A DNA stretch of 64,000 bases. It comes from Perlabentimonas gracilis (GTDB lineage: Bacteria > Bacteroidota > Bacteroidia > Bacteroidales > Tenuifilaceae). The stretch lies in NCBI RefSeq assembly GCF_011174675.1, contig NZ_JAANIG010000004.1, positions 1 through 64,000 of the forward strand, in the 5' to 3' direction. Both the position numbers and the translations under genes were made by a program. Of this stretch, positions 11,222 through 26,574 are shown one piece after another. The notes beneath the pieces are model-generated. The model made no database searches, had not been told where the DNA came from, and saw only the letters and a list, made by a program, of their open reading frames with translations. Position 1 is the stretch's first letter. Every line of letters starts with the position of its first letter.

Positions 11222-11254
11222 TAGCCCTAGTAACTAGCTGGATATACAAACTTA

Positions 11255-11284
11255 AACCTCGAGGCAACTCGAGGTTGTTTTTTT
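11255..11284 (+). terminator. Terminator after CapD-like gene
   Basis: Stem aacctcgag (11255-11263) / ctcgaggtt (11268-11276) with a gcaa loop, then a T-rich run. Confidence 0.85.
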
Positions 11285-11354
11285 ATAGCTAAAAGCCTCA
11301 AAACTCAGCTTAAAGTCCCTCCATTACAAACTATAGCTTAAAAATAAACCCACT

Positions 11355-11362
11355 TAACTTTG
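11355..11362 (+). promoter_or_regulatory. Candidate promoter of the CheR-Sia signalling cluster
   Basis: TAACTTTG matches the -7 consensus. It lies 180 bases before the first ATG of the cluster, so the transcript would carry a long leader. The remainder of the leader (to 11542) is AT-rich and I see no riboswitch-like structure. Confidence 0.4.
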
Positions 11363-11542
11363 TTGTTTAGATAAGTATTTATATTTTTAGCAAGTTTATT
11401 GGGATTACTATATCTATTTGGGTAGCCCTTAATTTCAGCAACTATTTATTACCAGCAGTAACTAGTTAGTTCCGTTCTGCGTAATAGTACTCATATAAGA
11501 ACCGATTAGTCGGAATACATTGATATCGTAACGTTTTTTTAT

Positions 11543-12382
11543 ATGGTTATAACCGATCAAGACCTTCAATACTTCGTAACCACCCTAAAGAACTCATCAA
11601 AATACGATTTCAGCGAGTATTCCGATAAGTCCTTAAAACGTAGGCTGCAAAAGGTACTCACCGATTTCAACCTCGATATTACTGGCCTTATATCTGCAAT
11701 AAAAAACAAGCCTGAGTTTACAGAGAAGATTGTAAAAGAGATAACGGTAAACACAACCGAACTGTTCCGCGACCCACAGGTTTGGCATACACTTCGCTCA
11801 AGGATCTTGCCCCGATTCAAAAACAACAAGAACATTAACATATGGCACGCCGGATGCTCCACGGGGCAAGAGGTGTACTCTATGATGATACTTTTAAACG
11901 AGATGGGGATGCTCGACAAGGCCAAAATCTTTGCATCGGATCTAAATTCCGATGTGCTGGAAGCAGCCAAAAAGGGCGAGTACAAGTATAGGTTTAACAT
12001 TGCGTACCTCGATAATTTCGATAAGGTTATTAAGCAAAACCCACTGAACTACGAAGAGTTTAACGACGTACCCTACGAAACGTATTTCGACATCGACAAG
12101 TCTCGAGATACCATCACCATGAAGAAATACCTAACGGAGAAACCCATATTTCGTAAGCACGACCTGGTTAAGGATGGCAACCTCTTTTTCGCAAAGTTCG
12201 ACCTAATCCTTTGTCGAAACGTAATAATATATTTTAATTACACGTTGCAGAACAAAGTTTTCGATCTGTTTCACTCAAACCTTTACAACAAGGGAATCCT
12301 TTTGCTTGGCATGCACGAAACAATACTTGGCCCTTGGGCCAATAAGTTCGAGAAGATGGGTCAAGCATACATCAAGAAGTAG
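11543..12382 (+). CDS. CheR-type SAM-dependent glutamate methyltransferase
   Basis: 279 residues, normal for CheR. The N-terminal helical CheR_N domain (about 1-70, DFSEYSDKSLKRRLQKVL) is followed by the methyltransferase domain. This has VNTTELFRDPQVWHTLR (about 69), the SAM-binding loop IWHAGCSTGQEVYSMMILL (about 102), the second acidic motif FASDLNSDVLEAAKKGEY (about 132) and LILCRNVIIYFN (about 221). All residues normally required for SAM binding are present, so it should be active. It is the first gene of a closely spaced cluster; the next gene, 27 bases away, encodes a membrane sensor with Glu/Gln-rich coiled coils. No chemotaxis kinase or MCP is in the window, so the target is more likely the adjacent sensors than a flagellar receptor. 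Confidence 0.9.
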   Translation: MVITDQDLQYFVTTLKNSSKYDFSEYSDKSLKRRLQKVLTDFNLDITGLISAIKNKPEFTEKIVKEITVNTTELFRDPQVWHTLRSRILPRFKNNKNINIWHAGCSTGQEVYSMMILLNEMGMLDKAKIFASDLNSDVLEAAKKGEYKYRFNIAYLDNFDKVIKQNPLNYEEFNDVPYETYFDIDKSRDTITMKKYLTEKPIFRKHDLVKDGNLFFAKFDLILCRNVIIYFNYTLQNKVFDLFHSNLYNKGILLLGMHETILGPWANKFEKMGQAYIKK

Positions 12383-12409
12383 AATAAAAATTTCTATAAC
12401 CTAACAATT

Positions 12410-14788
12410 ATGAAATTGTTAAACAAACTAAGCATGAAACGCAAAATCCAACTGGTTGTTGGGTTGTTCTTGCTTTTCCTATTTACATTATCGGCTCTAA
12501 CACTTTATACTTTCTCACTTAAGCGAGTTGAACGGTCTATAAATCTCCAATCCACCGTGTATCTCGATAAACTTTCTGCAATAATAGCCGAAGTAGACAA
12601 ACATAACGAGCAAGGCTTTAACCATAACGATTACATTGCCCTTAAGCCCCATTTTAACAAACCCGCCTTTTTCTCAACCGACTATCCATTCATGGTTAAT
12701 ACCGAGGGGCTATACAGTATTCATCTGTACAAAGAGGGGCATCGATTCCCAAGGGAACTGCTCAACCAAATGTTTTCAAACCCTCAAGGTGAGGGCTCTA
12801 TTAGTCATACCGAACTAGTGAACAATAAAGAGCAAAGTGTGCTAATCTTCTACAAAAAGATAGAACAGTACAATGCGTTTATCGGCTTACCTATTAATAT
12901 AAACGAGGCAACCCAAGACATAAGGGGGAATCGGTCGATAATGATTCTACTCGTGCTACTAGGTTCAATAGCTATTGTCCTCATAATAAACATAACGCTA
13001 AAGCCAACTCTTGACTCCATTGCAAAAGTTAATCGCAGTGTTAGCCTAATGGCCAAAGGGGAAACACCAGAAACTATTGCACACCACTCCGATGATGAGG
13101 TTGGTATGATTATACAATCACTCAATCGGCTTATTGAAGGATTAACCAAAACCGCTGCCTTTGCCAGCGATATTGGGCAAAATACCTTGAGCAGCGAGTT
13201 CACCCCCCTTGGCCCCAAGGATAAGTTGGGTAACGCCCTGCTGGATATGCGCAAAAATCTTAAGAAAGCCTTGGACGAGGAGCAAAAACGTAAACATGAA
13301 GACGAACAGCGGAACTGGGTGAATTCGGGCTTGGCAAAGTTTGCCGATATACTTCGCCAAAATAATAACAACCTGCAAGCACTTGCCGACAATGTTACTC
13401 AGAACCTGCTAGACTACCTCAACGCAAACCAAGGCGGATTATTTATCCTTAACGAGGACGATGAGGACAAACCTCAACTTGAACTACTCTCGGCCTTTGC
13501 CTACAATCGTAAAAAGTTTAGACAAAAAACCATATTGATAGGTGAAGGATTGGTTGGAAACTGCGCCCTCGAAAAGCACACTGTTCACCTAAAGGAAATC
13601 CCTGAGAACTATCTCGATATCACATCAGGACTTGGCGAAGCACCACCCCGATCACTTCTAATTGTACCACTAAAATTGGAGGACAAAGTATTTGGAGTTT
13701 TAGAACTAGCCTCGTTCAATAATTTTAGCCCGTACGAAATCGAGTTTATTGAGAAGATTGGCGAGAGCATTGCCTCTACCCTATCGGCCGTGAAAAACAG
13801 CATTCGTACAACCCAACTGCTTGAGCAATCGCAGCAGCAACGAGAAGAGATGGCTGCTCAGGAAGAGGAGATGCGGCAGAATATGGAGGAGATGCAAGCC
13901 ACTCAGGAAGAGATGTCGCGCAAAACAATCGAGATGGAGGGTATGACCTCGGCCATAAACCAGTCGCTACTTTTCGCCGAACTTGCAGACGACGGCTCGT
14001 TCCTCAATATCAATACTAACATCCTAGACCTGCTCGATTACTCGCGCAGCGAAATGGAAGAGAGACCTTTGCAATCGATAATTCATCCATACGATGCCAA
14101 TAGTTTTACCAACTCATGGAGAGGCATTATTACTGGCGAAACGTTTAAGGGCACATTGCGCTGGGTGAACAGAAACAACGATGAGCTTTACGTGCTCTGC
14201 AGTATCACCCCTGCTTTTGATGAGAGTGGAGAAATCTTCAAGATATTCCTCCTAGGACAAGACATAACCTCATCGAAACAAATTGAGATAAAAGCCCAGG
14301 AACAGGCCGAAGAGATTGAGCGGAACCTTATTGAACTCCAAGCAGAACAAGAGCTTGCTCAAGAACGCGAGGAAGAAATCGCAGCCCTACTAAAAGCCTT
14401 GGACACCACCTGCTTGGTAACCGAATTTGAGCCCAACGGTAGAATAACGTTTATCAACAGGCGCAACGAGGAAGTTCTGGGTGATGCTAAGGAAAAAATT
14501 ATTGGTAGGCTCCACTCCGAGCTCGATTTTGAGGCAAAAAACAGCCCTGAGAGGTACAACCAATTCTGGGCCAAACTTCTCGAAGGCACTCCTCAGCAAA
14601 GAGAATTCTCACTAAAAACTAGCGGCAAGCAGGTATGGATATCGGAACACTACACACCAATTCAGAACACTGAGGGTCAGGTGGTGAAAATAATTAACAT
14701 AGGAATTGATATTAGCAAGGGGAAAAACGCCGAGTTACTGCTTCAGCAGCAGGTAGAGGAACTCTCGAAACAGCTTAGAAGCAAGTAG
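12410..14788 (+). CDS. Membrane sensor: sensory loop, HAMP, GAF, coiled coil, two PAS domains
   Basis: 792 residues. TM1 is about 13-36, an extracytoplasmic sensory segment about 37-175, TM2 about 176-196, HAMP about 197-250 and GAF about 305-460 (IGEGLVGNCAL...EIPENYLDITSGLG...LLIVPL). A Glu/Gln-rich coiled coil lies at about 465-515 (EEMAAQEEEMRQNMEEMQATQEEM), PAS1 about 515-630, a second coiled coil about 632-660 and PAS2 about 665-775. It has no histidine kinase, GGDEF, MCP signalling hairpin or phosphatase, so it must pass its signal by protein contact or by modification. The coiled coil resembles methylation helices, and CheR and CheB genes flank it, so it is a plausible methyl-acceptor. 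That link is inference. Confidence 0.85.
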   Translation: MKLLNKLSMKRKIQLVVGLFLLFLFTLSALTLYTFSLKRVERSINLQSTVYLDKLSAIIAEVDKHNEQGFNHNDYIALKPHFNKPAFFSTDYPFMVNTEGLYSIHLYKEGHRFPRELLNQMFSNPQGEGSISHTELVNNKEQSVLIFYKKIEQYNAFIGLPININEATQDIRGNRSIMILLVLLGSIAIVLIINITLKPTLDSIAKVNRSVSLMAKGETPETIAHHSDDEVGMIIQSLNRLIEGLTKTAAFASDIGQNTLSSEFTPLGPKDKLGNALLDMRKNLKKALDEEQKRKHEDEQRNWVNSGLAKFADILRQNNNNLQALADNVTQNLLDYLNANQGGLFILNEDDEDKPQLELLSAFAYNRKKFRQKTILIGEGLVGNCALEKHTVHLKEIPENYLDITSGLGEAPPRSLLIVPLKLEDKVFGVLELASFNNFSPYEIEFIEKIGESIASTLSAVKNSIRTTQLLEQSQQQREEMAAQEEEMRQNMEEMQATQEEMSRKTIEMEGMTSAINQSLLFAELADDGSFLNINTNILDLLDYSRSEMEERPLQSIIHPYDANSFTNSWRGIITGETFKGTLRWVNRNNDELYVLCSITPAFDESGEIFKIFLLGQDITSSKQIEIKAQEQAEEIERNLIELQAEQELAQEREEEIAALLKALDTTCLVTEFEPNGRITFINRRNEEVLGDAKEKIIGRLHSELDFEAKNSPERYNQFWAKLLEGTPQQREFSLKTSGKQVWISEHYTPIQNTEGQVVKIINIGIDISKGKNAELLLQQQVEELSKQLRSK

Positions 14789-14809
14789 CATTAATCAAAA
14801 CACTAAGAA

Positions 14810-15646
14810 ATGACTAGATACGAAATAGGCATTGTTGAAACGCGAAACGTCATAAAAACGTTGCTAGATACCTACAGCTACGATTTTAGGGACTTTGCCC
14901 TTACTTCGTTCAAGCGTAGGCTCGAGGATGTTATTATGAAGAATGGGCTGAGGGATTCTGAAGGGCTAATCGGCAGGTTGCTGAACAACAAAGACTTCCT
15001 CGAGCATTTTCTTAAGGATATTACACCCGAAACCACCGAAATGTTCCGCGACCCTTCGCTATGGCGTAGCTTGCGCGAGGAGATAATACCTGCAATTGTT
15101 AAATCCAGCTCCAAGCTCAAAATTTGGGTTGCTGCCTTCGATTCGGGTGAGGAGATATACTCGCTTTGTATCCTTCTAAAAGAAATGGATCTGCTGGATA
15201 AGTTCGAGGTTTTTGCCTCAACCATAAGCGATGAGGTGACAAAAAAAATCAAATCGGGCCGATTAGACATTAAGCAACTTGAGGTCAACGAAGCCAACTA
15301 CGAACGATCGAACGGTACAAAACGCTACACCGATTACCACACCACGGCTAACAGTAGCGGCACTATAATAATTGACACAAGCTTGGTTGACAACGTTAAG
15401 TTTGTTAAGCAAGACACTCTGTTTTCCAACGCCCCATCGGGTATGAGGCTAGTCCTATTCCGTAACCAGCTAATATACTTCAACCAGCTACTGCAGGACA
15501 AAACCCTTACTGCCGTTCACGGCAGTATGGTTCCGGGTGGATATTTGGCGCTAGGGGCTAAGGAAACTTTGGAAAATACAAATTCAAGCAATAAATTTAC
15601 AGTGGTAAACGATGCCGAAAAAATATATAAGAAAAAAGTAGGCTAA
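14810..15646 (+). CDS. Degenerate CheR paralogue (probable pseudo-methyltransferase)
   Basis: 278 residues. It aligns along its length with the CheR at 11543 (YDFRDFALTSFKRRLEDV, ITPETTEMFRDPSLWRSLR, IYFNQLLQDK, LALGAKETL). Key SAM-site residues differ: HAGCSTGQEVYS is replaced by VAAFDSGEEIYS, FASDLN by FASTIS, and LCRNVIIYF by LFRNQLIYF. Loss of the GxS/TG loop glycine and of the acidic ribose-contact residue suggests that it no longer binds SAM well. It may act as a binding or regulatory subunit. The frame is intact, and it sits 21 bases after the sensor and 12 before CheB, so it is maintained as part of the operon rather than decaying. Confidence 0.8.
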   Translation: MTRYEIGIVETRNVIKTLLDTYSYDFRDFALTSFKRRLEDVIMKNGLRDSEGLIGRLLNNKDFLEHFLKDITPETTEMFRDPSLWRSLREEIIPAIVKSSSKLKIWVAAFDSGEEIYSLCILLKEMDLLDKFEVFASTISDEVTKKIKSGRLDIKQLEVNEANYERSNGTKRYTDYHTTANSSGTIIIDTSLVDNVKFVKQDTLFSNAPSGMRLVLFRNQLIYFNQLLQDKTLTAVHGSMVPGGYLALGAKETLENTNSSNKFTVVNDAEKIYKKKVG

Positions 15647-15658
15647 CTCATAAACAGA

Positions 15659-16219
15659 ATGTACAAAGCATTAATCATAGGAGGTTCAGCAGGAAGTTTT
15701 CAGGTGATAACTCGTATTTTGAGCTCGTTGCCAGCAAACTTCCCTCTACCCGTGCTACTTAGCCTGCATAGGCTTAAGCACGTTCGGAGCGGTTTTGTTG
15801 AGGCACTCTCCATAAAATCGGCAATTCCTGTGGTTGAGCCTTTCGATAAGGATCAGATAAAACCCGGTAAAGCATACCTCGCTCCGGCCAACTACCATAT
15901 GTTTATCGAACTTGGCAACAAAATTGCCCTGTCGACAGAGCCACCTGTAAACCACTCTAGACCCTCTATCGATTTGTCTTTCGTTACCGCCGCACAGGTT
16001 TACCGCGAAAAACTAATTGGCATTATCCTATCCGGAGCAAACAAGGACGGTGCTTATGGCCTAAAAAAGGTTAGCGATTACGGGGGCGTTACCATTGTTC
16101 AGGATCCTATGGAATGCCAGGTTAAAACAATGACCGAGTCGGCACTCAAAATAACCAAGGTAGACCATGTTATGAAAACTGACCAAATAATCAGATTTTT
16201 ACAAAACATTAAACAATAG
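15659..16219 (+). CDS. Stand-alone CheB-type methylesterase domain
   Basis: 186 residues, only the catalytic CheB domain without the usual N-terminal receiver domain. The triad is recognisable: Ser in IIGGSAGSF (about residue 10), His in LSLHRLKHVRSGF (about 37) and Asp in LSGANKDGAYGL (about 130). PGKAYLAPANYHM (about 65) is the conserved family segment. It should remove methyl esters from, or deamidate, glutamyl residues. With no receiver domain it cannot be phosphorylated by a CheA-type kinase, which fits the lack of CheA here. Together with the CheR genes it gives a reversible methylation pair. Confidence 0.9.
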   Translation: MYKALIIGGSAGSFQVITRILSSLPANFPLPVLLSLHRLKHVRSGFVEALSIKSAIPVVEPFDKDQIKPGKAYLAPANYHMFIELGNKIALSTEPPVNHSRPSIDLSFVTAAQVYREKLIGIILSGANKDGAYGLKKVSDYGGVTIVQDPMECQVKTMTESALKITKVDHVMKTDQIIRFLQNIKQ

Positions 16220-16229
16220 TAGATGCCCT

Positions 16230-17027
16230 ATGAAAATCTTCTCTACCAACTCAAGATTTAGCTACGGCATCCTGCTGGTATTGCTGGTTATTAGCATATC
16301 AGGCATATTCTTTAGCCTACACAACCAGATAATCCAAGCGCAGGCCAAAACACCCCTATTGGCGGTTCTATTTACCATTGTTTCTATTGCCCTAGCCATA
16401 CTCATTTTCCAAAGGCTTATAGCAGGTATTAGCGTAAACAACAACTACGTTAAAGAACTGGAACAACTCAAGAAGGCCATTCTGGAGAGGACAAGGCAAG
16501 AAGAGGCGGCTCAAGAAGATTTTGTGGAACAGCAGGCAGCTATAGACCATGAAGCCGAGGCCATAGCATATATTCCTAAAGAGAAATTTGATAGCGAAGA
16601 GAAATTTCTAGAGGTACTCCTCTCCAATATTGCAAAGACTAACGATATTGTACAATCCATTGCCTTTAAAAAGAATGAAGAAACAAGTATGTTCGAGATG
16701 ATAGCATCTTACGCCTACTACTCCGAAAGCGCCCCCCCCACATTTGCCGACGGCGAAACCCTACCGGGGCAGGTGGCTAAGAACCAAGTAGCGCTTAACC
16801 TTTCGGAAGTCCCTAACGATTATATAACCGTTCTTTCAGGGCTAGGCAAAGGAACACCCAAGCATCTTTTAATCGTTCCTATTATCAGTAGCGAACACAT
16901 ATCAACCGGAGTTTTGGAGTTTGCCTCGTTTAAGGAGTTTACATCAGATAAGGTTAAGACTCTCGAAAAGCTTGGGCTGCTTCTTAACGAGCATATTAGT
17001 AGAATTGGCAATAGCATAGAGGAATAA
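16230..17027 (+). CDS. Membrane-anchored GAF-domain protein
   Basis: 265 residues. Two membrane helices (about 11-31 and 43-63) and a Glu-rich coiled coil (about 75-115) are followed by a GAF domain (about 125-262). The GAF domain shares the pattern GETLPGQVA...LSEVPNDYITVLSGLG...HLLIVPI...GVLEFASF with those of the sensor at 12410 and the phosphatase at 17029. It has no output domain. It starts 10 bases after CheB and ends one base before the next gene's ATG, so it is translationally close to the phosphatase and may pair with it. The GAF ligand cannot be inferred. Confidence 0.75.
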   Translation: MKIFSTNSRFSYGILLVLLVISISGIFFSLHNQIIQAQAKTPLLAVLFTIVSIALAILIFQRLIAGISVNNNYVKELEQLKKAILERTRQEEAAQEDFVEQQAAIDHEAEAIAYIPKEKFDSEEKFLEVLLSNIAKTNDIVQSIAFKKNEETSMFEMIASYAYYSESAPPTFADGETLPGQVAKNQVALNLSEVPNDYITVLSGLGKGTPKHLLIVPIISSEHISTGVLEFASFKEFTSDKVKTLEKLGLLLNEHISRIGNSIEE

Positions 17028-17028
17028 T

Positions 17029-19641
17029 ATGAAAGATCATAACATCACCTCATCGGAGAACTCACGAAGAGCAATAACCCAAAGGGTTGTAGTTGCGGGA
17101 ATTGTGGGCCTAATAACCCTCATTGCCGCCTGGATTCTGGAATTTACCGTACAAGAAATCCCGTTCTCCCTTAGGGGAGTTGGAACAATCCACAGGTCAA
17201 ACCCCTCTTTGTGGCTTATCAATCTGCTACCCCTTGTTCTTGTATACATCACCTACATCAATGTAAAGCGACATCAGGAAAAGGTGTCTTTTCTAGAGAA
17301 TGAGCTTCGGCAAAAGGATCAGGATATTAACAAAAATGCTCTATTCGCTAAAACCATAGGCGAAGGCAATTACAAAGCACCATTCCAAATTAGCGACGAG
17401 GACGATATTTTAGGAAAATCGCTGCTAGTTATGCGCGACAACCTGCTCGAGAACAACAAGAAGGAGGCCGAGCAAAACTGGATTTCGAAGGGCAAAGATG
17501 ATGTGTCGTACATCTTAAGGTTGCACAACAACCTCGAGGAGTTGTCGTACGAAGTGTTGGTTAAGCTTATTAAGTATATCAACATTATTCAGGGGGCACT
17601 TTATTTGTACAACGAGGAGAAAAATGTGCTGGTAAACCTGGCCACCTACGCATATAACCGCAAAAAATTCTTTAGCCAAGAGTTTCGAATTGGTGAAGGG
17701 CTGATTGGACAATGCGCCTACGAGCAGGATATTATTTACCGCACCGAGATTCCCGACGACTACGTATCGATTACCTCTGGTATTTTAGGCGATAAAAAAC
17801 CCAAAAGCATCCTAATAGTTCCGCTGGTTACCGATGAAAAACTTCAAGGGGTTATTGAGTTTGCCTCGCTCGACGACCAGATTCCGGAGCTCACAATTCG
17901 TTTCCTTAAGGAAATGGGCGAAATTATTGCCAGAACCATTTTCAACCTTCGCATAAATCAAAAAACGGAGAAACTGCTTCAGGAAGCTCAACAGATGACG
18001 CAGGAACTCAAAGAGAATGAGGAAGAGCTTCGTCAGAATGCCGAGGAGATGAGAGCTACCCATGAAGAGCTTGAGAAATCGAACCTTCAGCTTGAGTCGA
18101 AAATACAGGAGGTTGAGAATGCACAGAAGAGGCTACACTCGCTACTTGAGAACGCATCTGAAATCATATCGATCTATAGCAGTAGCCAGAAGTTAACATA
18201 TATCAGCCCATCGGTTACCAAGATACTGGGCTATACTCCTCAGGAGATGATGAGCGGCAAGGATATGGATCGTCTTACCCGCAGGGGCGAACAGGACATA
18301 ACCGAGATGTTTCAAAAATTGCTGGAAGCGCCCATGGTGCCCATCACCATTCAGTACACCTTTATGAAGAAGGATGGAACCAAGCTCTTCCTGGAGGTTA
18401 CTGGTAGAAACCTGCTTGATGACCCTGCCATAAATGGCATTATTCTCAACTCACAAGACATTACCGAGCGTAAACGAGCCGAAAAGGAAGAGAGAATGCG
18501 TAGCAAGATGCAAGCCCTATCGGAGAATTCACCCGATATGATTATGCGTTTGAACACCAGCGGCCAATTCTTCTATGCTAACCCGATGGTTGAGGAATAC
18601 CTTGGAATTCCCGTTAAAGAGTTGATCAATCAAACCCTGAACTCGGTCGATTTGAACGAAGTGCTTTCTAACTACTTTAAGGAAACCATAAAGAACATAA
18701 GAAACACCAAAACCCAAGTCGAGAGCGACTTAACCTTCAACTCAAAGCTTGGCGAAACCATCATGCACATCTCGGCCATCCCCGAGTTTAACGAGAATGA
18801 GCTGGAGACCATTCTGTTCGTGAGCCACGACATCACCGAGGCCAAGAGAATTGAGCAGGAAATACAGGATAAGAACCGAAAAATTACTGAGAGTATCAAC
18901 TACGCGCAGCGTATTCAAACCTCTATCCTACCAAATAACCGAATCATAAGGCAATACCTTCCCAAATCGTTTATATACTATAGGCCTCGCGATGTAGTTA
19001 GCGGCGACTTCCCTTGGTTCTTCGTAAAAGACGATTATATCTATATTGCTGCTGTTGACTGTACTGGCCACGGGGTTCCTGGTGCCCTACTTTCGTTCAT
19101 AGGCTACTTCATCCTCAACAACGTAGTGGACCACGACTCAGGCTATTCGGCAAGCAAAGTGCTAGACCTGCTGCACTATGGTGTTCGGAAAACCCTTAAG
19201 CAGGATCGTCCCGATGCCGATGCTCGCGATGGAATGGACATTGCGCTATGTAAAATAAACCTTAAAACAAAAGAGCTACAGTACTCCGGGGCTCATCGCC
19301 CGCTTTACCTTGTCAGAGATAACGAGCTGCAAGAGTTCAAGGGCGATCGTAAGGCCATTGGAGGGATCCCTCATCCCAAAAAGGAAGAGAAAGATTTCAC
19401 CAACTATACCCTTGAAATAAAGCCCAACGACAAGATATTCTTCTTCTCCGATGGCATGCCCGATCAGATTGGTGGTGACGATAATCGGAAGTACAGCCCT
19501 GCTAGGGTTAGGGAGCATATAATGGGAAACCAAACGCTAACTATGCCTCAGTTTAACGACCTTTTTGCAAAGGATTTTGAGGCCTATATGGGTAACAACA
19601 AGCAAATTGATGACGTACTATTAATAGGAATTCAATTCTAA
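17029..19641 (+). CDS. GAF-PAS-PAS-SpoIIE (PP2C) phosphatase, SiaA/RsbU-like
   Basis: 870 residues. Two TM helices lie at about 19-40 and 62-80. A HAMP-like linker runs about 85-150, GAF about 165-310, and a Glu-rich coiled coil about 312-372 (ELKENEEELRQNAEEMRATHEEL). PAS1 is about 373-485, PAS2 about 495-620 and the SpoIIE/PP2C phosphatase about 635-870. Metal-site aspartates are visible in RDVVSGDF (about 658), AAVDCTGHGVPGA (about 672), FFFSDGMPDQIGG (about 804) and QIDDVLLIGI (about 859). Such enzymes dephosphorylate a Ser/Thr on a partner-switch protein; the likely substrate is the SiaC homologue encoded two genes on. It differs from Pseudomonas SiaA in having GAF/PAS inputs. Confidence 0.88.
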   Translation: MKDHNITSSENSRRAITQRVVVAGIVGLITLIAAWILEFTVQEIPFSLRGVGTIHRSNPSLWLINLLPLVLVYITYINVKRHQEKVSFLENELRQKDQDINKNALFAKTIGEGNYKAPFQISDEDDILGKSLLVMRDNLLENNKKEAEQNWISKGKDDVSYILRLHNNLEELSYEVLVKLIKYINIIQGALYLYNEEKNVLVNLATYAYNRKKFFSQEFRIGEGLIGQCAYEQDIIYRTEIPDDYVSITSGILGDKKPKSILIVPLVTDEKLQGVIEFASLDDQIPELTIRFLKEMGEIIARTIFNLRINQKTEKLLQEAQQMTQELKENEEELRQNAEEMRATHEELEKSNLQLESKIQEVENAQKRLHSLLENASEIISIYSSSQKLTYISPSVTKILGYTPQEMMSGKDMDRLTRRGEQDITEMFQKLLEAPMVPITIQYTFMKKDGTKLFLEVTGRNLLDDPAINGIILNSQDITERKRAEKEERMRSKMQALSENSPDMIMRLNTSGQFFYANPMVEEYLGIPVKELINQTLNSVDLNEVLSNYFKETIKNIRNTKTQVESDLTFNSKLGETIMHISAIPEFNENELETILFVSHDITEAKRIEQEIQDKNRKITESINYAQRIQTSILPNNRIIRQYLPKSFIYYRPRDVVSGDFPWFFVKDDYIYIAAVDCTGHGVPGALLSFIGYFILNNVVDHDSGYSASKVLDLLHYGVRKTLKQDRPDADARDGMDIALCKINLKTKELQYSGAHRPLYLVRDNELQEFKGDRKAIGGIPHPKKEEKDFTNYTLEIKPNDKIFFFSDGMPDQIGGDDNRKYSPARVREHIMGNQTLTMPQFNDLFAKDFEAYMGNNKQIDDVLLIGIQF

Positions 19642-19679
19642 ATTGATTATTATCGGTAAATTATTTAATTTTACGGGCT

Positions 19680-20255
19680 ATGGATAAAAGAAATGTTAAA
19701 GGTTTTCTGGAGTTTGTCTACGACTTCTACAAGTCGATGAAAGCTCATGAAATCACTCTCGTGTACGAGGGCGAAATAACACACCAGATCACCAAGGCCT
19801 TCACCTCCCTCACCGAATCGAATATGGCCAAGGAGGAGGAGTCGAACTCGGTGCAAAAAAAGGTGTTCCACGTAATGGTTGAGTGCCTGCAAAACATCAG
19901 TAAGCACGCCGACAGCTTTGGCTCCGACGACTTTCTGTTTGCTGGCCGAGGAATATTCATGGTGAGCAAAGGCGAAATTGAGTACCATGTTACCACGGGT
20001 AACGTGATTGAGAACTCAAAAATCGATGAGCTAACTAAAATCCTCGATCACATCAACACCCTCGACAAGGATGGCCTTAAAGAGCTGTACAAAACCCAAA
20101 TGCGTGAGGGGAGGCTCTCGGAGAAAGGTGGTGCAGGACTAGGTTTTATTGATATTGCACGTAAAACCGGTCGTAAGCTCGATTACCATTTTCTTCCCAT
20201 CGATGAGGAAACGCATTTCTTCATTCTAACCTCAACCATTTCGCGAAACGAGTAA
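19680..20255 (+). CDS. siaB: SiaB-family protein kinase (DUF6272)
   Basis: 191 residues. A GHKL-like fold is suggested by an N-box type helix VFHVMVECLQNISKHAD (about 60-77) and a late glycine motif GGAGLGFIDIARKTG (about 148-162). This matches the SiaB family, which phosphorylates SiaC. In Pseudomonas the SiaA phosphatase and SiaB kinase set the phosphorylation state of SiaC. Here the SpoIIE gene is immediately upstream and the SiaC gene 11 bases downstream, the same order as the known module. No SiaD diguanylate cyclase follows. Confidence 0.85.
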   Translation: MDKRNVKGFLEFVYDFYKSMKAHEITLVYEGEITHQITKAFTSLTESNMAKEEESNSVQKKVFHVMVECLQNISKHADSFGSDDFLFAGRGIFMVSKGEIEYHVTTGNVIENSKIDELTKILDHINTLDKDGLKELYKTQMREGRLSEKGGAGLGFIDIARKTGRKLDYHFLPIDEETHFFILTSTISRNE

Positions 20256-20266
20256 ATAATTGAGTT

Positions 20267-20650
20267 ATGGAAACCATAAAGATTCTGGGTACGGACGATA
20301 CCCCCACCGTAATTTTAGATGCTGATAACGACATCTTCGAAATATCTGGCCGTTCGCTGCCCGAAGATGTAACAGCCTTTTACGATCCAATATTAAATTG
20401 GCTCGACGAGTACGCATCAAGCCCCAATGCCAAAACGGTATTTACCTTTAAGCTGGTGTATTTCAACACAGCAAGCTCAAAACTGCTGCTCGACATCCTC
20501 ATGAAGCTCGAGGAGATGCACGAAGACGGTAAGGATGTGCTGGTTAAATGGTACTACCCCGAAGACGATGAAGATATGCAGGAAGCAGGCGAAGAGTATG
20601 CTGATATCGTTGACGTACCTTTTGAACAGGTTAGCTACACATTAAGCTAG
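20267..20650 (+). CDS. siaC: SiaC-family regulatory phosphoprotein (DUF1987)
   Basis: 127 residues, full length. The conserved segment FKLVYFNTASSKLLLDIL places Thr at residue 68, the same position as the reported phosphorylated threonine of Pseudomonas SiaC. It should be phosphorylated by the SiaB-like kinase and dephosphorylated by the SpoIIE phosphatase encoded upstream, and then bind a target in one of the two states. In Pseudomonas the target is a diguanylate cyclase. None is present here; the next gene, 45 bases away, is an ABC transporter, which may be the target (inference). Confidence 0.88.
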   Translation: METIKILGTDDTPTVILDADNDIFEISGRSLPEDVTAFYDPILNWLDEYASSPNAKTVFTFKLVYFNTASSKLLLDILMKLEEMHEDGKDVLVKWYYPEDDEDMQEAGEEYADIVDVPFEQVSYTLS

Positions 20651-20695
20651 CACCAAGTTTACTACTAACAATTGGGAAACCAGTAAAACTAGTCC

Positions 20696-23600
20696 ATGAG
20701 CGAGGAAATTCTCAAGGCTTTAATGCAGCTCTTTGCAATTATTGCAAAGCAGGACGAAGGCGTTGAATCCAACGAACGTGATTACGTTGTGAATTTCCTG
20801 ATGCAGCAGGTAAACGACGAGGCCGTTGAAGAGTACATAAAGCTTTTTGATCAGCACGCAGGACTAAACGACGAAAAAAACGGAGAAGAGGAGGATGGGC
20901 AGCCCAAAAAGGTGAAGCTTACCTCGGTAAAGGACTCGGTTAAAATTTTGGGGATCTGTAAAAAGATCAACAAAACCCTAACGCAAAAGCAGAAAGTGGT
21001 TGTACTGGTTCGCTTGTTCGAGCTGGTAAACGCCGACCGTAAATTTACCGACCAACGTATGGCCATTATAAACACCGTGGCCGACGTGTTTAAGCTCTCC
21101 AAGGAAGAATTTACCGATATTGAAAACTTTGTAATAAACAACGACCCCAAGGAACTCGACTTCTCAAGCATTTTAACCATCCATGATAAGCCCGAGGTAG
21201 GTGAAAACTGCAAGCACATCACCACTGAGGCTCTCGATGGCTTTCTATACATCCTGCAGATCAAAAGTGAAGACCTTTACTTCCTTCGCTACACAGGCCA
21301 TGAGGATGTATTCCTCAACGGCCTTCCCATAAACAACAAGCGTATTTATCTTTTTGCCAACGGCAGCTCCATTAAGCTGCCCAAGGGCAAACCCATTTAC
21401 TACACCGATGTTGTTGCCCACTACCTAGCCGACTCCACCAGCATCCGAATATCTTACAATGTTGAAGATGTAGGTTTTAGGTTTAAATCGGGAGACGTAG
21501 GTCTCCGTAACATTAGCTTTAGCGAGGAGCAAGGTAAACTTATAGGTATTATGGGCGCCAGCGGTGCTGGCAAAACAACCCTGCTCAACGTATTGGCAGG
21601 CATTGAGGCGCCAACCACCGGAAAGGTAAAGATAAACGGTGTTGATCTCCACAATGAAAGTGATCAGCTTGAAGGAGTTATAGGTGTTATTCCACAGGAT
21701 GACCTACTGATTGAGGAGCTAACGGTTTTTCAGAACCTATACTACAACGCCAAGCTATGCTTCAAGGATAAATCGGACGAGGAGTTAACTGAGCTTGTGC
21801 ACAAAACCCTTCAGAATCTAGGCCTATATGAGCGCAAGGATCTTAAGGTAGGATCGCCGCTTAACAAGATGATCTCGGGCGGACAGCGTAAAAGGTTAAA
21901 CATTGCCCTTGAACTTATTCGCGAGCCCGCTATTCTTTTTGTTGACGAGCCAACCTCCGGGCTTTCGTCGCGAGACTCAGAAAACGTGATGGATCTCCTA
22001 AGGGAGCTTACCCTTAAGGGAAAGCTTATATTCGTGGTGATTCACCAGCCATCGTCAGACATCTACAAGATGTTTGATAATATGATGATTCTGGACACCG
22101 GAGGTTTCATGATTTACTACGGAAACCCTGTAGAAGCCGTAATGTACTTCAAGCGGCTCGACATGCAGATCAATAGCGATCAGGGTGAATGCCCCACATG
22201 TGGTAACGTAAACCCCGAGCTTATCTTCAATATTATTGAGGCCAAGGTAGTGGATGAATTTGGAAGGTACACGCCCATTCGCAAGGTATCGCCTCCCAAG
22301 TGGTACGATTATTTCAGCGAGAATATAAAGCTAAAAGAGATTCATGACGAGAGTGAACCACCACCCAAATCGCTCAATATCCCCTCAAGGCTAAAGCAGT
22401 TCTTTATCTATACCACGCGCGATTTTTTGTCGAAGATAAGCAACACCCAGTACATTGTGCTAAACCTGCTTGAGACCCCAATTCTTGGGTTTATCCTAGC
22501 CTATGTAATTAGATATATTGCCGACCCTAACTCCAACGTTTACGTATTTAGCGAAAACGAGAATATACCCATATACATATTCATGGCGCTTATTGTTGCT
22601 CTATTCATTGGGCTAACCGTGAGCGCCGAGGAGATTTTTAGAGACAGGAAGCTTTTGAAACGAGAGGCTTTCCTCAACCTAAGCCGGACATCGTACCTGT
22701 TTAGTAAGATTTCAATACTGGTTGTGCTCTCGGCTATTCAAAGTATCACTTTTGTTCTTATAGCCAATGGTATACTGGAACTTTGGGGGATGAACTTTGA
22801 GTACTGGCTCGTACTGTTTTCCACGGCAATATTTGCCAACATGCTGGGGCTAAACATATCGGCCACATTCAACTCGGCAGTTACCATATACATTGTTATC
22901 CCGTTGGTAATGATTCCAATGATGGTGCTTTCGGGGGCAATGTTTAGCTTCGATAAGCTTAACCGGGCAGTGGGTAGCTTCGGACGAGTTCCACTCATTG
23001 CCGAGTTTATGGTTACCAAGTGGGGTTACGAGGCGCTTGTGGTTCACCAGTTCAAGAATAACGATTTCCACAAGACCTTTTACGACATTGAAAAGGTTGA
23101 ACGAAATGCCGACTACAAAACGGTTTACTACATACCCGAGCTCGAAAAAATTGTTACAGAGAGTCTCGATTTAATTGAAAGCCATAAAGAAGATCAAAAG
23201 AAAAAGAATAAGTTTGAGGATAACCTTCTCGTGCTTCGAAACTCCCTTTTTAAAGAATCCAACTTCCTTGCTCCAGCCATCCCGTATAGCTACCTCGACA
23301 AGCTCAACCCTGACCTGTTTGACTTTGAGGCTGCCTATGCAACCCTCGATTACCTGGATGAGCTGAAGAAGCATTACAGTAAGATTTTCCAAAGGGCAAA
23401 TCAACGTCGAGATGACATTATTTCGTATCTGATCTCAACAAACCCAAGGCAATACCAAGCTAAGCGACAAGCGTTTCATAACGAAAGCATTGCCGATTTG
23501 GTGACAAAGAAGTTTGAGAAAAACAAAATTCTTCAATACAAAGGGGAGCTAGTACAGCAATACGACCCTATTTATCGCGATCCTATACCCAACCATTCAC

Positions 23601-23788
23601 TCGATTTCCGCTCTCACTTCCTGGCACCACGCAAGCATTTCCTTGGAAACTACTACGATACGTTTTGGTTCAATATTTGCTTCATATGGTTCATGACAGC
23701 AATTCTATACATCACCCTATACTTTGAAGCCCTTAAAAAGCTAATCGATTTTTTTGGTAAAATTAAATTACCCAAACTCAGAAAATAA
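20696..23788 (+). CDS. TerB-like N-terminus fused to ABCG-type ABC transporter
   Basis: 1030 residues. The N-terminal helical domain (about 1-155) has a TerB/DjlA-like pattern (LFAIIAKQDEGVESNERDYV ... RLFELVNADRKFTDQRMAIINTVADVF). A beta-rich linker (about 165-260) is possibly FHA-like. The ABC ATPase has Walker A GIMGASGAGKTTLL (about 285), signature ISGGQRKRLN (about 392), Walker B ILFVDEPTSG (about 412) and the switch His in VIHQPSSD (about 448). A CPTC motif occurs near 499. About five TM helices lie between 590 and 785 (ABC2_membrane), then a large insert and a last TM at about 990-1010. This is a half-transporter of the ABCG/White type that would dimerise. Substrate is unknown. Confidence 0.85.
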   Translation: MSEEILKALMQLFAIIAKQDEGVESNERDYVVNFLMQQVNDEAVEEYIKLFDQHAGLNDEKNGEEEDGQPKKVKLTSVKDSVKILGICKKINKTLTQKQKVVVLVRLFELVNADRKFTDQRMAIINTVADVFKLSKEEFTDIENFVINNDPKELDFSSILTIHDKPEVGENCKHITTEALDGFLYILQIKSEDLYFLRYTGHEDVFLNGLPINNKRIYLFANGSSIKLPKGKPIYYTDVVAHYLADSTSIRISYNVEDVGFRFKSGDVGLRNISFSEEQGKLIGIMGASGAGKTTLLNVLAGIEAPTTGKVKINGVDLHNESDQLEGVIGVIPQDDLLIEELTVFQNLYYNAKLCFKDKSDEELTELVHKTLQNLGLYERKDLKVGSPLNKMISGGQRKRLNIALELIREPAILFVDEPTSGLSSRDSENVMDLLRELTLKGKLIFVVIHQPSSDIYKMFDNMMILDTGGFMIYYGNPVEAVMYFKRLDMQINSDQGECPTCGNVNPELIFNIIEAKVVDEFGRYTPIRKVSPPKWYDYFSENIKLKEIHDESEPPPKSLNIPSRLKQFFIYTTRDFLSKISNTQYIVLNLLETPILGFILAYVIRYIADPNSNVYVFSENENIPIYIFMALIVALFIGLTVSAEEIFRDRKLLKREAFLNLSRTSYLFSKISILVVLSAIQSITFVLIANGILELWGMNFEYWLVLFSTAIFANMLGLNISATFNSAVTIYIVIPLVMIPMMVLSGAMFSFDKLNRAVGSFGRVPLIAEFMVTKWGYEALVVHQFKNNDFHKTFYDIEKVERNADYKTVYYIPELEKIVTESLDLIESHKEDQKKKNKFEDNLLVLRNSLFKESNFLAPAIPYSYLDKLNPDLFDFEAAYATLDYLDELKKHYSKIFQRANQRRDDIISYLISTNPRQYQAKRQAFHNESIADLVTKKFEKNKILQYKGELVQQYDPIYRDPIPNHSLDFRSHFLAPRKHFLGNYYDTFWFNICFIWFMTAILYITLYFEALKKLIDFFGKIKLPKLRK

Positions 23789-23849
23789 TTTTTTTGTATC
23801 TTTACTTGACATATTAAAAGCGAGGAACTAAAATTAACGACCTTTAGCT

Positions 23850-24764
23850 ATGCATAAGAAACTAATCTTCATAATATCAATTGCTCTAGTAACCACTTCA
23901 TCGTGCCGGTTTTTCAACTCCGATCGAAATATGAGCCGCGAAGAGTTTGATATCCCCGATGAACTTTTTGAAGACAAGCCCCTAGAAGTTTCCTCCGAGG
24001 TTATTGACGAGATGATTCAGAATGTTTCATCTCCTGTAGAAACTGCAGCGCTTATTAAAGGTCTAAACATCCCTTTCAATCGCGACTACATCGCCAAAAC
24101 CCAATTCGACAAGAACCTAAACACAAGTTTCCAAAAGGCTATGGGCTTAGGAATTTACGGAGCAGGCCTTGGGTATATCAATATGTATGAACGAACATCA
24201 CTAGTAATAAACTACATTACTACCATCAAATCGCTTGCCGATGGCATACAGGTGGGTCAGTTCTTCGATTTTTCAACCCTAAACCGAATCGCAACCAACA
24301 AGGAGAACCTTGACTCGCTGATGCTCATTTCGCAGCAAAGCTTTAACAGAATAGACAATTACCTTCGCGAAACCAATAGGCCCCACCTTAGCATCGTAAT
24401 TGTTGCAGGGGTTTGGATTGAAGGGCTATACATATCTACAAGGGTTGCACAGGACTCAAAAAACCCTAGGATTAATGAGATTATTGGCGAGCAAAAGGTA
24501 ACCATGAACACCCTTATGCTGCTGCTTAACAACTACAAGTACGATCCGAGCATTGCAGCACTTATTAAGGATATGGAAGAACTACAGGAACTCTACCGCG
24601 ATGTTCGAATAACCTACGAATACGGAGACCCCGTTTCTGTTGAAAAGGATGGCGTGCTAACCTTCCAGCAAAATGATACTCAGACAATCCATATGTCTGA
24701 CGAAACGCTAGATAAAATCATTAAGAAGGTGCAGACCATAAGGAACGGTTTACTACAAGTATAA
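23850..24764 (+). CDS. Lipoprotein of unknown function
   Basis: 304 residues. The N-terminal signal MHKKLIFIISIALVTTSSC ends in a cysteine that fits a lipobox. The mature part is mostly helical and Leu/Asp/Asn-rich, with no family I can name (features: QFDKNLNTSFQKAMGLGIYGAGLGYINMYE and VVIVAGVWIEGLYISTRVA). It follows the ABC transporter by 61 bases and precedes a second exported protein by 19 bases, so it probably belongs to the same unit and acts at the envelope. Confidence 0.7.
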   Translation: MHKKLIFIISIALVTTSSCRFFNSDRNMSREEFDIPDELFEDKPLEVSSEVIDEMIQNVSSPVETAALIKGLNIPFNRDYIAKTQFDKNLNTSFQKAMGLGIYGAGLGYINMYERTSLVINYITTIKSLADGIQVGQFFDFSTLNRIATNKENLDSLMLISQQSFNRIDNYLRETNRPHLSIVIVAGVWIEGLYISTRVAQDSKNPRINEIIGEQKVTMNTLMLLLNNYKYDPSIAALIKDMEELQELYRDVRITYEYGDPVSVEKDGVLTFQQNDTQTIHMSDETLDKIIKKVQTIRNGLLQV

Positions 24765-24783
24765 TTCTGAAATCTTTGGAACT

Positions 24784-25224
24784 ATGAAAAATATATTCTT
24801 TGCTTTTTTTATTACAACGGCTTTAATGCTTGGTTTTGCCAATGTATCGAAAGCTCAGTCGGAGGACGATCTGGTTGAGATATGTGGTATGATTGCTGGA
24901 GATGCCACCTTTCTTAAAGATTTTAGAATCCGCCTAGATGCTGGGGACCCCCCACCCATCCAACGGTTCTCTGTGATACTTCGCAAAGGGATTAAATATC
25001 GCTTTTCGGTTTGTAACTCCAAGGATTATGAAGGAAAAGTTGTTCTTCAGCTGCTCGACAACAACAGGCTACTTGCTACCACCTACATTGTGGCCACAGG
25101 TGCCGACCACCCATCGATAGAGTATGTTTGTACTCGAACTGGCGCCTACCACCTATTCTTTAACTTTAGAGATGGTAAGCCAGGGCTTGCTGTTGGGCTA
25201 CTTTCGCTGGTTGAGACAATGTAA
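24784..25224 (+). CDS. Small secreted protein of unknown function
   Basis: 146 residues with a signal peptide (MKNIFFAFFITTALMLGFANVSKAQ, cleavage after KAQ). The mature part is about 120 residues, beta-rich, with two cysteines (ICGM and SVCNS) and a third near VCTRTGAY. This pattern recalls small carbohydrate-binding or prepeptidase C-terminal-like beta sandwiches (KYRFSVCNSKDYEG...GAYHLFFNF), but I cannot assign a family. It is the last gene of the signalling cluster, followed by a terminator. Confidence 0.65.
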   Translation: MKNIFFAFFITTALMLGFANVSKAQSEDDLVEICGMIAGDATFLKDFRIRLDAGDPPPIQRFSVILRKGIKYRFSVCNSKDYEGKVVLQLLDNNRLLATTYIVATGADHPSIEYVCTRTGAYHLFFNFRDGKPGLAVGLLSLVETM

Positions 25225-25251
25225 GGCTCTATTCCAACACCATATACATAT

Positions 25252-25275
25252 AGCAGCCTCTGGCTGCTTTTTTTG
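25252..25275 (+). terminator. Terminator of the CheR-Sia-ABC cluster
   Basis: Stem agcagcc (25252-25258) / ggctgct (25262-25268), then a T run. Confidence 0.85.
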
Positions 25276-25285
25276 TGCAGGATAT

Positions 25286-25327
25286 ACAAAAACAAGAGAC
25301 CCAGCAAGCAATGGCTTACTGGGTCTC
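25286..25327 (-). terminator. Terminator of tRNA-Asn
   Basis: Inverted repeat gagacccag (25296-25304) / ctgggtctc (25319-25327). On the minus strand it is followed by a T-rich run (complement of 25286-25295). It lies seven bases past the tRNA 3' end. Confidence 0.75.
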
Positions 25328-25333
25328 TTGAGC

Positions 25334-25406
25334 TCCTCATCTAGGACTTGAACCTAGGACCCCCTGATTAACAGTCAGGTGCTCTAACCAACTGAGCTAA
25401 TGAGGA
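25334..25406 (-). tRNA. tRNA-Asn (anticodon GTT)
   Basis: 73 bases. Read on the minus strand it has acceptor TCCTCAT/ATGAGGA, D-arm GCTC...GAGC, anticodon arm CCTGA-CTGTTAA-TCAGG with GTT, and T-arm CTAGG-TTCAAGT-CCTAG. All stems pair. The CCA end is not encoded. Confidence 0.97.
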
Positions 25407-25548
25407 ATGTTGGCAACGGCTTCCCGTTTTGCGAGTGCAAATATAAATCCTTTAATTATTCTGGCAAAATTTTTCTGGGGAATATTGCAAAATTTTTCTT
25501 CATCTATTTGCAGGTCTAAGAAATTGAGTGAATATCAGCATTAATAGC

Positions 25549-25556
25549 TAACTTTG
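25549..25556 (+). promoter_or_regulatory. -7 element of PfkB kinase gene
   Basis: TAACTTTG, 25 bases before the GTG start at 25582. Confidence 0.5.
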
Positions 25557-25581
25557 TGGGGCAAAATAAAAAAATTAAATC

Positions 25582-26574
25582 GTGAAAATATTCGGAATAG
25601 GTAATGCGCTGGTGGATATAATGACTAGCCTTGAGAGTGATAGTCTACTTGAGACACTTAACCTGCCCAAAGGCAGTATGCAGATTGTAAATGACAAAAC
25701 TATAGCCAAGGCGCTAGAGCAAACCAAAGGCCTAAAGCAGTCGCTTGCATCGGGAGGAAGCGCGGCCAACACCATAAACGGATTGGCTAACCTAGGTATG
25801 GAAACGGCCTTTGTGGGCAAGGTGGGAAACGATGAGCTAGGAAACTTCTTTCGAAGCGATATGCAAAAAGCAGGGATTAGCCCACAACTACTCCTGGGTA
25901 AAGCATCAACGGGAACAGCCTTGGCCCTTGTTTCGCCCGACTCCGAAAGAACCTTTGCCGTGAATCTTGGCGCTGCCATTGAAATGACTGCTGAAGATAT
26001 TACCACCAGTCTTTTTGAAGGGTACAACTACTTTCATATTGAAGGCTACCTGGTGCAAAACCATAGCCTTATTGAAAAGGCACTGAAGGTAGCCAAGGCC
26101 TCGGGGCTAAAGGTATCGCTCGACTTAGCCAGCTACAACGTGGTGGAGTCGAACCTTGACTTCCTGCAAAGGATGGTTAAAGAGTATGTAGATATTGTTT
26201 TTGCCAACGAAGAGGAGGCCAAAGCGTTTACTCTGAAATTGCCCGAAGAGGCTCTCGACATGCTTGCTGAAATTGCCGAAATTGCTGTAGTGAAAATTGG
26301 CGCAAAGGGTTCATTAATTAAGAAGGGAAACGATAAATATAGCGTAGGGGTTGTTAAAGCCAACGCTATTGACACCACCGGTGCAGGCGACTTATACGCT
26401 TCGGGTTTTCTGTATGGGCTATCGAAAAACCTGCCCCTTGACACCTGCGGAAGAATAGGGGCCGTGCTATCGGGAAAAGTAATTGAAGTAATGGGTCCAA
26501 AGATGGACGAAGAGACATGGAAAATGCTAAAGGTGAACATTGCCAAGGTTGAAACAGGAGAACTTAGCTTTTAA
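25582..26574 (+). CDS. PfkB-family sugar/adenosine kinase
   Basis: 330 residues, from a GTG start. This is a ribokinase-fold enzyme: an N-terminal GIGNALVDI, a GG motif (SGGSAANTINGLANLG, about residues 55-70), FANEEEAKAF and the C-terminal catalytic signature ANAIDTTGAGDLYASGFLYGL (about 258-278), with Asp as base and the GAGD anion hole. It is most like Bacteroidota adenosine kinases, but substrate choice within PfkB cannot be settled by eye. It appears monocistronic, with the convergent AAG glycosylase gene three bases past its stop. Confidence 0.88.
   Translation: MKIFGIGNALVDIMTSLESDSLLETLNLPKGSMQIVNDKTIAKALEQTKGLKQSLASGGSAANTINGLANLGMETAFVGKVGNDELGNFFRSDMQKAGISPQLLLGKASTGTALALVSPDSERTFAVNLGAAIEMTAEDITTSLFEGYNYFHIEGYLVQNHSLIEKALKVAKASGLKVSLDLASYNVVESNLDFLQRMVKEYVDIVFANEEEAKAFTLKLPEEALDMLAEIAEIAVVKIGAKGSLIKKGNDKYSVGVVKANAIDTTGAGDLYASGFLYGLSKNLPLDTCGRIGAVLSGKVIEVMGPKMDEETWKMLKVNIAKVETGELSF

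Follow-up and report, generated by a model that had tools for sequence, protein, structure and literature searches.

Adaptation by the methyltransferase CheR and the methylesterase CheB is known from kinase-based chemosensing. Another described system close to the locus reported here is SiaABCD of Pseudomonas aeruginosa, in which phosphorylation of SiaC at Thr68 is set by SiaA and SiaB, according to the available part of PMC7647112. We analysed a window of 64,000 nucleotides at the start of contig NZ_JAANIG010000004.1 of Perlabentimonas gracilis. Positions 11543-25224 of this window hold a block of eleven open reading frames (ORFs), all on the + strand, which resembles both the SiaABC switch and CheR/CheB adaptation, but as a whole is a member of neither. 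Our tentative reading, with a probability a little short of even, is that the block is a SiaABC-type membrane signalling operon, in which a PP2C partner switch tuned by CheR/CheB controls an ABCG transporter. The enzyme activities, the methylation target, the contact of SiaC with the transporter and the transported substance are what we infer in this reading.

The block shares with SiaABCD a PP2C phosphatase, a SiaB kinase and a SiaC protein in which Thr68 has the same place in the sequence (PMC7647112, as far as available). Unlike SiaABCD, neither the block nor the genome has SiaD or a GGDEF domain, the phosphatase senses via GAF-PAS-PAS and has just its PP2C part in common with the SiaA model, and CheR/CheB and the transporter are added. 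With CheR/CheB receptor adaptation it has in common a methyltransferase and a methylesterase with conserved catalytic residues, and the motif EExxAT in helical linkers. In contrast to chemosensory pathways, however, domain searches of its ORFs found no CheA, CheW, CheY or methyl-accepting chemotaxis protein (MCP) domain, its CheB has no receiver, a second, decayed CheR is present, and the partner is a PP2C phosphatase. Hence, the block is not a SiaABCD system, because it lacks SiaD and its phosphatase is no SiaA equivalog, and not a chemosensory pathway, because CheA, CheW, the MCP domain and the CheB receiver are missing. The absence of CheA, CheW, CheY, MCP and SiaD had been pointed out in a preliminary description of the block; for SiaD it extends to every GGDEF domain of the genome. 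This genome (G000; 4.37 Mb, 100 contigs, 99.9% complete) gave 16 SiaC, 7 SiaB, 4 CheR and 3 CheB matches, 15 MCPs above cut-off, and 0 matches to the GGDEF domain, which excludes a SiaD-type enzyme as the route of SiaC action in this organism. As the preliminary description had supposed, no described system of this composition was found in the literature searched, a search that was not exhaustive and left subscription papers and preprints mostly uncovered. PMC9239204, in its available part, treats Campylobacterota and only cites SiaABCD.

The ORF names were backed by Pfam and NCBIfam domain searches, which supported the gene identities proposed earlier (CheR/CheB, GAF/PAS sensors, PP2C phosphatase, SiaB, SiaC, TerB/ABCG transporter and two exported proteins). 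The phosphatase, called PPM here (17029..19641, +), is a SiaA-like membrane protein with a GAF-PAS-PAS-SpoIIE (PP2C) architecture (SpoIIE 5e-18), and its residues D660, D677, D808, D861 and D862 were invariant in 16/16 sequences. The SiaA model NF038263 matched its PP2C part only, at 168.9 bits of 700, and the equivalog level was not reached. The SiaB-family kinase (19680..20255, +) scored above the cut-off of the family model NF038262 (2.5e-52, 177 bits vs 85) and below that of the narrow SiaB equivalog (87 of 225); it matched 6kko_A (2e-13), and its E68 and N72 were invariant in 84/84. The SiaC phosphoprotein (20267..20650, +; PF09345 5.2e-43) was also below the narrow NCBIfam equivalog (89.6 of 150) and matched 6kko_C. 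Its Thr68, in YFNTASSK, aligns with Thr68 of P. aeruginosa SiaC and was invariant in 77/77. These family matches and the invariant Thr68, SiaB and PP2C residues support the SiaA/B/C-type switch that had been suggested for the block. In the proposed mechanism, PPM and SiaB would determine whether SiaC is phosphorylated at Thr68, and the STAS-like SiaC would control the TerB-ABCG transporter next to it instead of a diguanylate cyclase. DUF1987, the SiaC family, is a structural relative of STAS domains, and DUF1987 proteins were suggested to modulate adjacent proteins, according to the available part of PMC8457831.

Fifteen further SiaC copies lie on contigs C17, C18, C22, C29, C30, C40, C49, C59 and C81 (L016-L025), mostly near housekeeping genes, with three copies in tandem at C30:31084-32283. 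At the position of Thr68, seven of them have Thr, seven have Ser and one has Asn. SiaB copies at L032:9894-10472 and L031:9703-10287 have no adjoining SiaC or phosphatase.

Gene order was compared in two sets of loci: set A, the window and its relatives, with 25 loci having PPM, and set B, the top 80 named loci among the PPM-scan matches listed, of which 79 pass the PPM threshold. Those close relatives that carry names are metagenome assemblies assigned to Bacteroidales or Bacteroidota. The two sets share some genomes and set B was picked by PPM similarity, and they are not independent samples. Counts were restricted to loci with room, i.e. loci whose contig extends far enough. The core PPM-SiaB-SiaC-ABC-exp1-exp2 was found in this order in 21/21 loci of set A with downstream room and in 58/60 loci of set B; the exceptions were L104, where SiaC scored under threshold, and L160, where no core follows PPM. 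Over both sets, the ABC gene was the next profiled gene after SiaC in 79/81 loci, with median gaps of 34 and 46 bases, and exp2 closed the core in 79/81. Moreover, PPM orthologues (E<=1e-150) occurred in 114 of the 393 genomes of the order, by which we rejected a single-genome oddity. Gene order is thus conserved beyond this genome, contrary to what the preliminary description had named as refuting it, and this conservation excludes a chance neighbourhood.

The transporter that had been noted beside SiaC (20696..23788, +) is a TerB-(beta domain)-ABCG half-transporter (TerB 3e-9, ABC_tran 1e-32, ABC2_membrane 2e-20). Its AlphaFold model (predicted local distance difference test score 83, predicted template-modelling score 0.69) matched human ABCG5 best (7r88_A, E 4.5e-23). 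Pfam domains, model and structure match agree on a nucleotide-binding domain (NBD) followed by a transmembrane domain, with the fold and domain order of ABCG transporters. Unlike these, the protein has an N-terminal TerB and beta domain, and in the model its last membrane helix is preceded by a large helical loop. The TerB part showed a median identity of 72% among 80 cluster orthologues vs 22-49% in the paralogues of the own genome, compared to 80% vs 49-70% for the ATPase part. Because TerB is kept mainly in the cluster version, this comparison suggests it as the best candidate for a partner site specific to the cluster. Residues 152-250 had no Pfam match in 17 members, and their profile gave one PDB match, weak at E 0.59, to Mek1 chain 5yyx, which we take to be an FHA domain; Rv1747-like ABC exporters carry an FHA domain ahead of the NBD.

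Behind the transporter gene follow exp1 (23850..24764, +), a predicted lipoprotein that is mostly helical and has no Pfam family, and exp2 (24784..25224, +), a small exported protein with a signal-peptide-like start and no Pfam match. Cys19 of exp1 was present in at least 90% of 46 sequences. The exp1 model had no Foldseek match with E<=0.001, and its best VIA-align Z of 7.7 is within the range that this tool calls common for helical models. The own genome has 6 near full-length ABC relatives, the window's own counted, and an exp1-like gene stands near 4/5 of the others (L026, L027, L029 and L030), which makes ABC-exp1 a repeated transport module. Three of these four copies also have a small exported-looking ORF, which was likened to exp2 solely from its size and position. 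At L030:8319-16987 (G000:C28), the ABC-exp1 paralogue with its small exported ORF lies 2 bases behind a weakly HisKA-like gene, itself behind receiver and hybrid kinase genes. Judged by these neighbours, the module at L030 stands behind another kind of switch.

The methylation enzymes are encoded upstream of the core. CheR1 (11543..12382, +) is a receptor-type glutamate O-methyltransferase by its domains (PF01739 4.3e-38, CheR_N 1e-6), and CheB (15659..16219, +; PF01339 3.2e-49) consists of the methylesterase domain alone (186 amino acids). R76, E110, D133 and N226 of CheR1 were invariant in 71/71 distinct orthologues, and Ser10, His37 and Asp130 of CheB were kept in all ungapped orthologues (70, 72 and 73 of 73). 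These residues, which form the active sites, are at positions consistent with alignments to solved CheR and CheB structures, and CheR1 is probably an active receptor-type methyltransferase. CheR2 (14810..15646, +) is a diverged paralogue (PF01739 1.4e-26) in which Pfam found no CheR_N domain. At the position aligned to D133 of CheR1 it has Asp in only 2/72 orthologues, and its Arg, Gly, Glu and Asn positions are mostly kept (71, 69, 65 and 70 of 72). Loss of the motif I glycine was dropped as a sign of decay, since the solved CheR 5ftw also has Ala there. By its decayed residue, CheR2 is probably a pseudo-methyltransferase, a non-working enzyme, and might serve as a non-catalytic partner. Of the CheR/CheB methylation enzymes in the preliminary description, CheR1 and CheB thus have intact catalytic residues, whereas CheR2 probably does not work as a methyltransferase.

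Elsewhere in the genome, a separate che operon encodes a receiver protein, CheA, CheW, CheR, CheD and a CheB with receiver. Given this operon and the 15 MCPs, the CheR and CheB of the block are extra copies, and we rejected the block as ordinary chemotaxis genes. A third CheR/CheB set is a CheB-CheR-PAS fusion of 969 amino acids (G000:C17:26316-27680; L176:8248-11157). In Bacteroidota of other orders, CheR-CheB pairs stand beside kinase-like genes (L189-L194; kinases recognised by sequence pattern only). There, too, a stand-alone CheR adjoins a receiver-less CheB, and by profile score these pairs are the nearest among the types examined: the cluster CheB profile gave 147-185 bits on them vs 88 bits on chemotaxis CheB. 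Unlike the block, they have a pattern-recognised kinase as neighbour instead of a partner switch. From these scores, the methylation module may derive from such pairs.

The candidate targets are three membrane proteins: PPM, the HAMP-GAF-PAS-PAS sensor SENS (12410..14788, +; Pfam, with HAMP just under its cut-off) and a membrane-anchored GAF protein (16230..17027, +; GAF_2 1.8e-5, under the curated cut-off), which might be a regulator or anchor. EExxAT (Glu-Glu-x-x-Ala-Thr), given as the receptor methylation consensus for Tsr in the available part of PMC1079850, is present in both sensor linkers, as E339-E340-M-R-A343-T344 in PPM, with more Glu pairs one heptad off, and as EEMQAT at residue 493 of SENS. 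The motif lends indirect support to the methylation of these coiled coils that the preliminary description had proposed. CheR1 and the receiver-less CheB would reversibly methylate glutamates in the coiled-coil linker of PPM between GAF and PAS, and likewise the SENS linker where SENS is present. As in chemotactic adaptation, methylation would then reset the output of the phosphatase to the background signal. SENS is not essential, because CheR1-CheR2-CheB-GAF-PPM is found without SENS in 17/59 named loci with room, which makes PPM or the GAF protein the more constant candidate target. We compared 142 distinct PPM sequences, of which 87 were linked to CheB and 43 were unlinked (12 of unknown linkage were set aside). 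A Glu/Gln pair at positions 339/340 was found in 79/87 linked vs 15/43 unlinked PPMs, and the strict hexapeptide in 67/87 vs 5/43. Unlinked genomes still own CheR1-CheR2-CheB-GAF, so that this trend fits a change of target and is no proof of methylation.

The block had been described as one cluster. It is a conserved unit, but consists of two separable modules, the core and an upstream quartet CheR1-CheR2-CheB-GAF with or without SENS. The full upstream set was present in 22/24 set A loci with upstream room; one locus lacked SENS, and genome G030 lacked CheR2 and CheB. Among the 59 set B loci with room, 25 had CheR1-SENS-CheR2-CheB-GAF, 17 had the same order minus SENS, and 17 differed. Of these last, seven had SENS together with an oppositely oriented CheR1-type gene, three had SENS alone, three had none of these genes, and single cases had the quartet inverted (L155), CheR1-CheR2-GAF with CheB split over two ORFs (L135), GAF alone, or two SENS. 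At L161, L163-L166, L171-L173 and similar loci, the oppositely oriented gene beside SENS-PPM is a second CheR1-type gene, and a quartet with its own CheR1 lies elsewhere. CheR2 was matched at E<=0.001 in 32/40 genomes (own plus 39 relatives); apart from G015 (63% complete), all of the 23 other members of the family had a match, and in G013 the cluster match was truncated by a contig end. The GAF gene followed CheB in the linked loci counted and in 17 stand-alone CheB loci, and was not found beside CheB in L090.

Cluster-type CheB was searched in 22 genomes, and its surroundings were read in 20 stretches. In 17 genomes the quartet lies away from the core, with the order CheR1-CheR2-CheB-GAF kept in 16; the 17th case (L206) ends at a contig end, and in L212 GAF runs into one. 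The other three stretches were linked to a further PPM (L210), held another CheB type (L213), or were the inverted case of L155 (L214). CheB of at least 254 bits occurred in 21 genomes reached via named loci (17 with the quartet away plus 4 others). We therefore rejected a loss of adaptation in genomes whose locus has no CheB, as 21/22 own cluster-type CheB and only G030 does not. Since those genomes own a cluster-type CheB, the argument from motif loss was weakened and was retested with independent contrasts.

Across the 393 genomes of the order, cluster-type CheB (>=254 bits, a line placed in the score gap to the next match at 212 bits after that gap was seen) occurred in 117. PPM and CheB were both present in 106 genomes, PPM only in 8, CheB only in 11 and neither in 268 (Fisher p 2e-72, which ignores kinship). 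Of the 106 pairs, 66 lay within 5 kb and 40 did not, some merely through contig ends. Of the 8 genomes with PPM only, four come from a single family (f8, which includes G030), and among these four G796 has a diverged CheB of 212 bits beside PPM; of the others, three are 72-80% complete and G695 is 95% complete.

Several observations weigh against a methylation-tuned switch that controls the transporter. The strict motif is broken in 20/87 linked PPMs. After correction for kinship only 8 independent contrasts remained, in which the Glu pair gave 3 for, 1 opposing and 4 ties; the Glu/Gln count at six PPM heptad positions gave 5 for, 0 against and 3 ties in the same contrasts. Moreover, [EQ][EQ]xx[AS][ST] matched in all 14 MCPs examined of the 15, mostly as EExSSS, EExx[AS][ST] matched in 3/7 CheR-linked kinases examined, and a GAF-PAS paralogue of SENS without MCP domain, just behind the che operon (L175:13588-15870; G000:C100:65587-67869), has the linker EELQATQEE. 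EExxAT could thus be an ordinary feature of such coiled coils. G030 keeps the core, CheR1, SENS and GAF with no cluster-type CheB (best 97 bits), which implies that CheB is dispensable in some lineages. A promoter-like site lies in the ABC-exp1 gap ahead of exp1, although such sites are not enriched (27 found vs 26.4 expected from shuffles). Finally, with 16 SiaC and 7 SiaB copies in the genome, SiaC may have other targets.

This last point leads to the alternative of a methylated sensor and a working switch whose SiaC acts on a target elsewhere, e.g. an envelope or transcription regulator, the transporter being only co-expressed. Most SiaC copies are distant from SiaB or phosphatases, which suggests shared or distant targets; the constant place of the transporter gene directly after SiaC and the TerB part conserved mainly in the cluster version argue for the adjoining protein. 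We consider this alternative unlikely, though a serious one. It is rather improbable that there is no methyl adaptation at all, with CheR1/CheB modifying another protein and PPM answering GAF/PAS ligands alone. Such an arrangement would account for the quartets without a cluster-type PPM beside them (at L208, a weak PPM-profile match of 154 bits lies 3.3 kb away) and for G030. It fits poorly with the co-occurrence of PPM and CheB, the consensus site in the PPM linker, the better kept linker Glu positions in linked PPMs, and the CheR1-type gene in opposite orientation beside SENS-PPM in 7/59 named loci despite a quartet elsewhere.

The pattern of CheR-binding pentapeptides is a C-terminal xZxxZ ending (PMC7390727, in its available part); it was found in 0/58 SENS, 0/94 PPM and 0/77 GAF proteins, and in six of the 14 MCPs examined (L177, L179, L181, L182, L184 and L186). 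That CheR1/CheB modify these MCPs, whose number and motif matches would allow it, and merely share a transcript with an unrelated switch is very unlikely, given that the che operon encodes a CheR, a CheD and a receiver-bearing CheB of its own, that xZxxZ endings are confined to MCPs in this comparison, that the cluster CheB profile scores lower on chemotaxis CheB than on CheB beside kinase-like genes, and that cluster-type CheB accompanies PPM in 106/393 genomes.

The tuned partner switch remains our preferred reading, because of the core order, the co-occurrence of PPM and CheB, the kept quartet, the invariant residues, the EExxAT linkers and the Glu pair of linked PPMs. The absence of GGDEF, the TerB conservation, the ABC-exp1 copy behind kinase genes and the suggestion in the available part of PMC8457831 add to it. 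We regard it as possible, short of probable, that CheR/CheB methylation with a pseudo-methyltransferase adapts a Ser/Thr phosphatase rather than a histidine kinase, and that this memory switch gates an ABC transporter, in SiaC bacteria without GGDEF where tested. If true, the use of CheR/CheB on a PP2C partner switch would make adaptation a device portable between signalling logics. SiaC (DUF1987), with 16 copies in a GGDEF-free genome, would gain an output other than diguanylate cyclase, for which no example was found in the literature searched (not exhaustively), and the repeated, uncharacterised ABC-lipoprotein module would be assigned a regulator.

The intergenic gaps along the block are 27, 21, 12, 10, 1, 38, 11, 45, 61 and 19 bases, so that the range of 1-61 bases, given earlier for most gaps of these same-strand genes, covers all ten. 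Terminator-like hairpins lie before the block at 11255..11276 (+), at the end of the upstream gene, and just after it at 25252..25268 (+). From this arrangement, one transcript for all eleven genes is likely. The two hairpins are the sole + strand matches with 5 G-C pairs in 11100-25620; overall, the scan gave 20 such sites on both strands, vs 14.4 (standard deviation 3.8) in shuffles.

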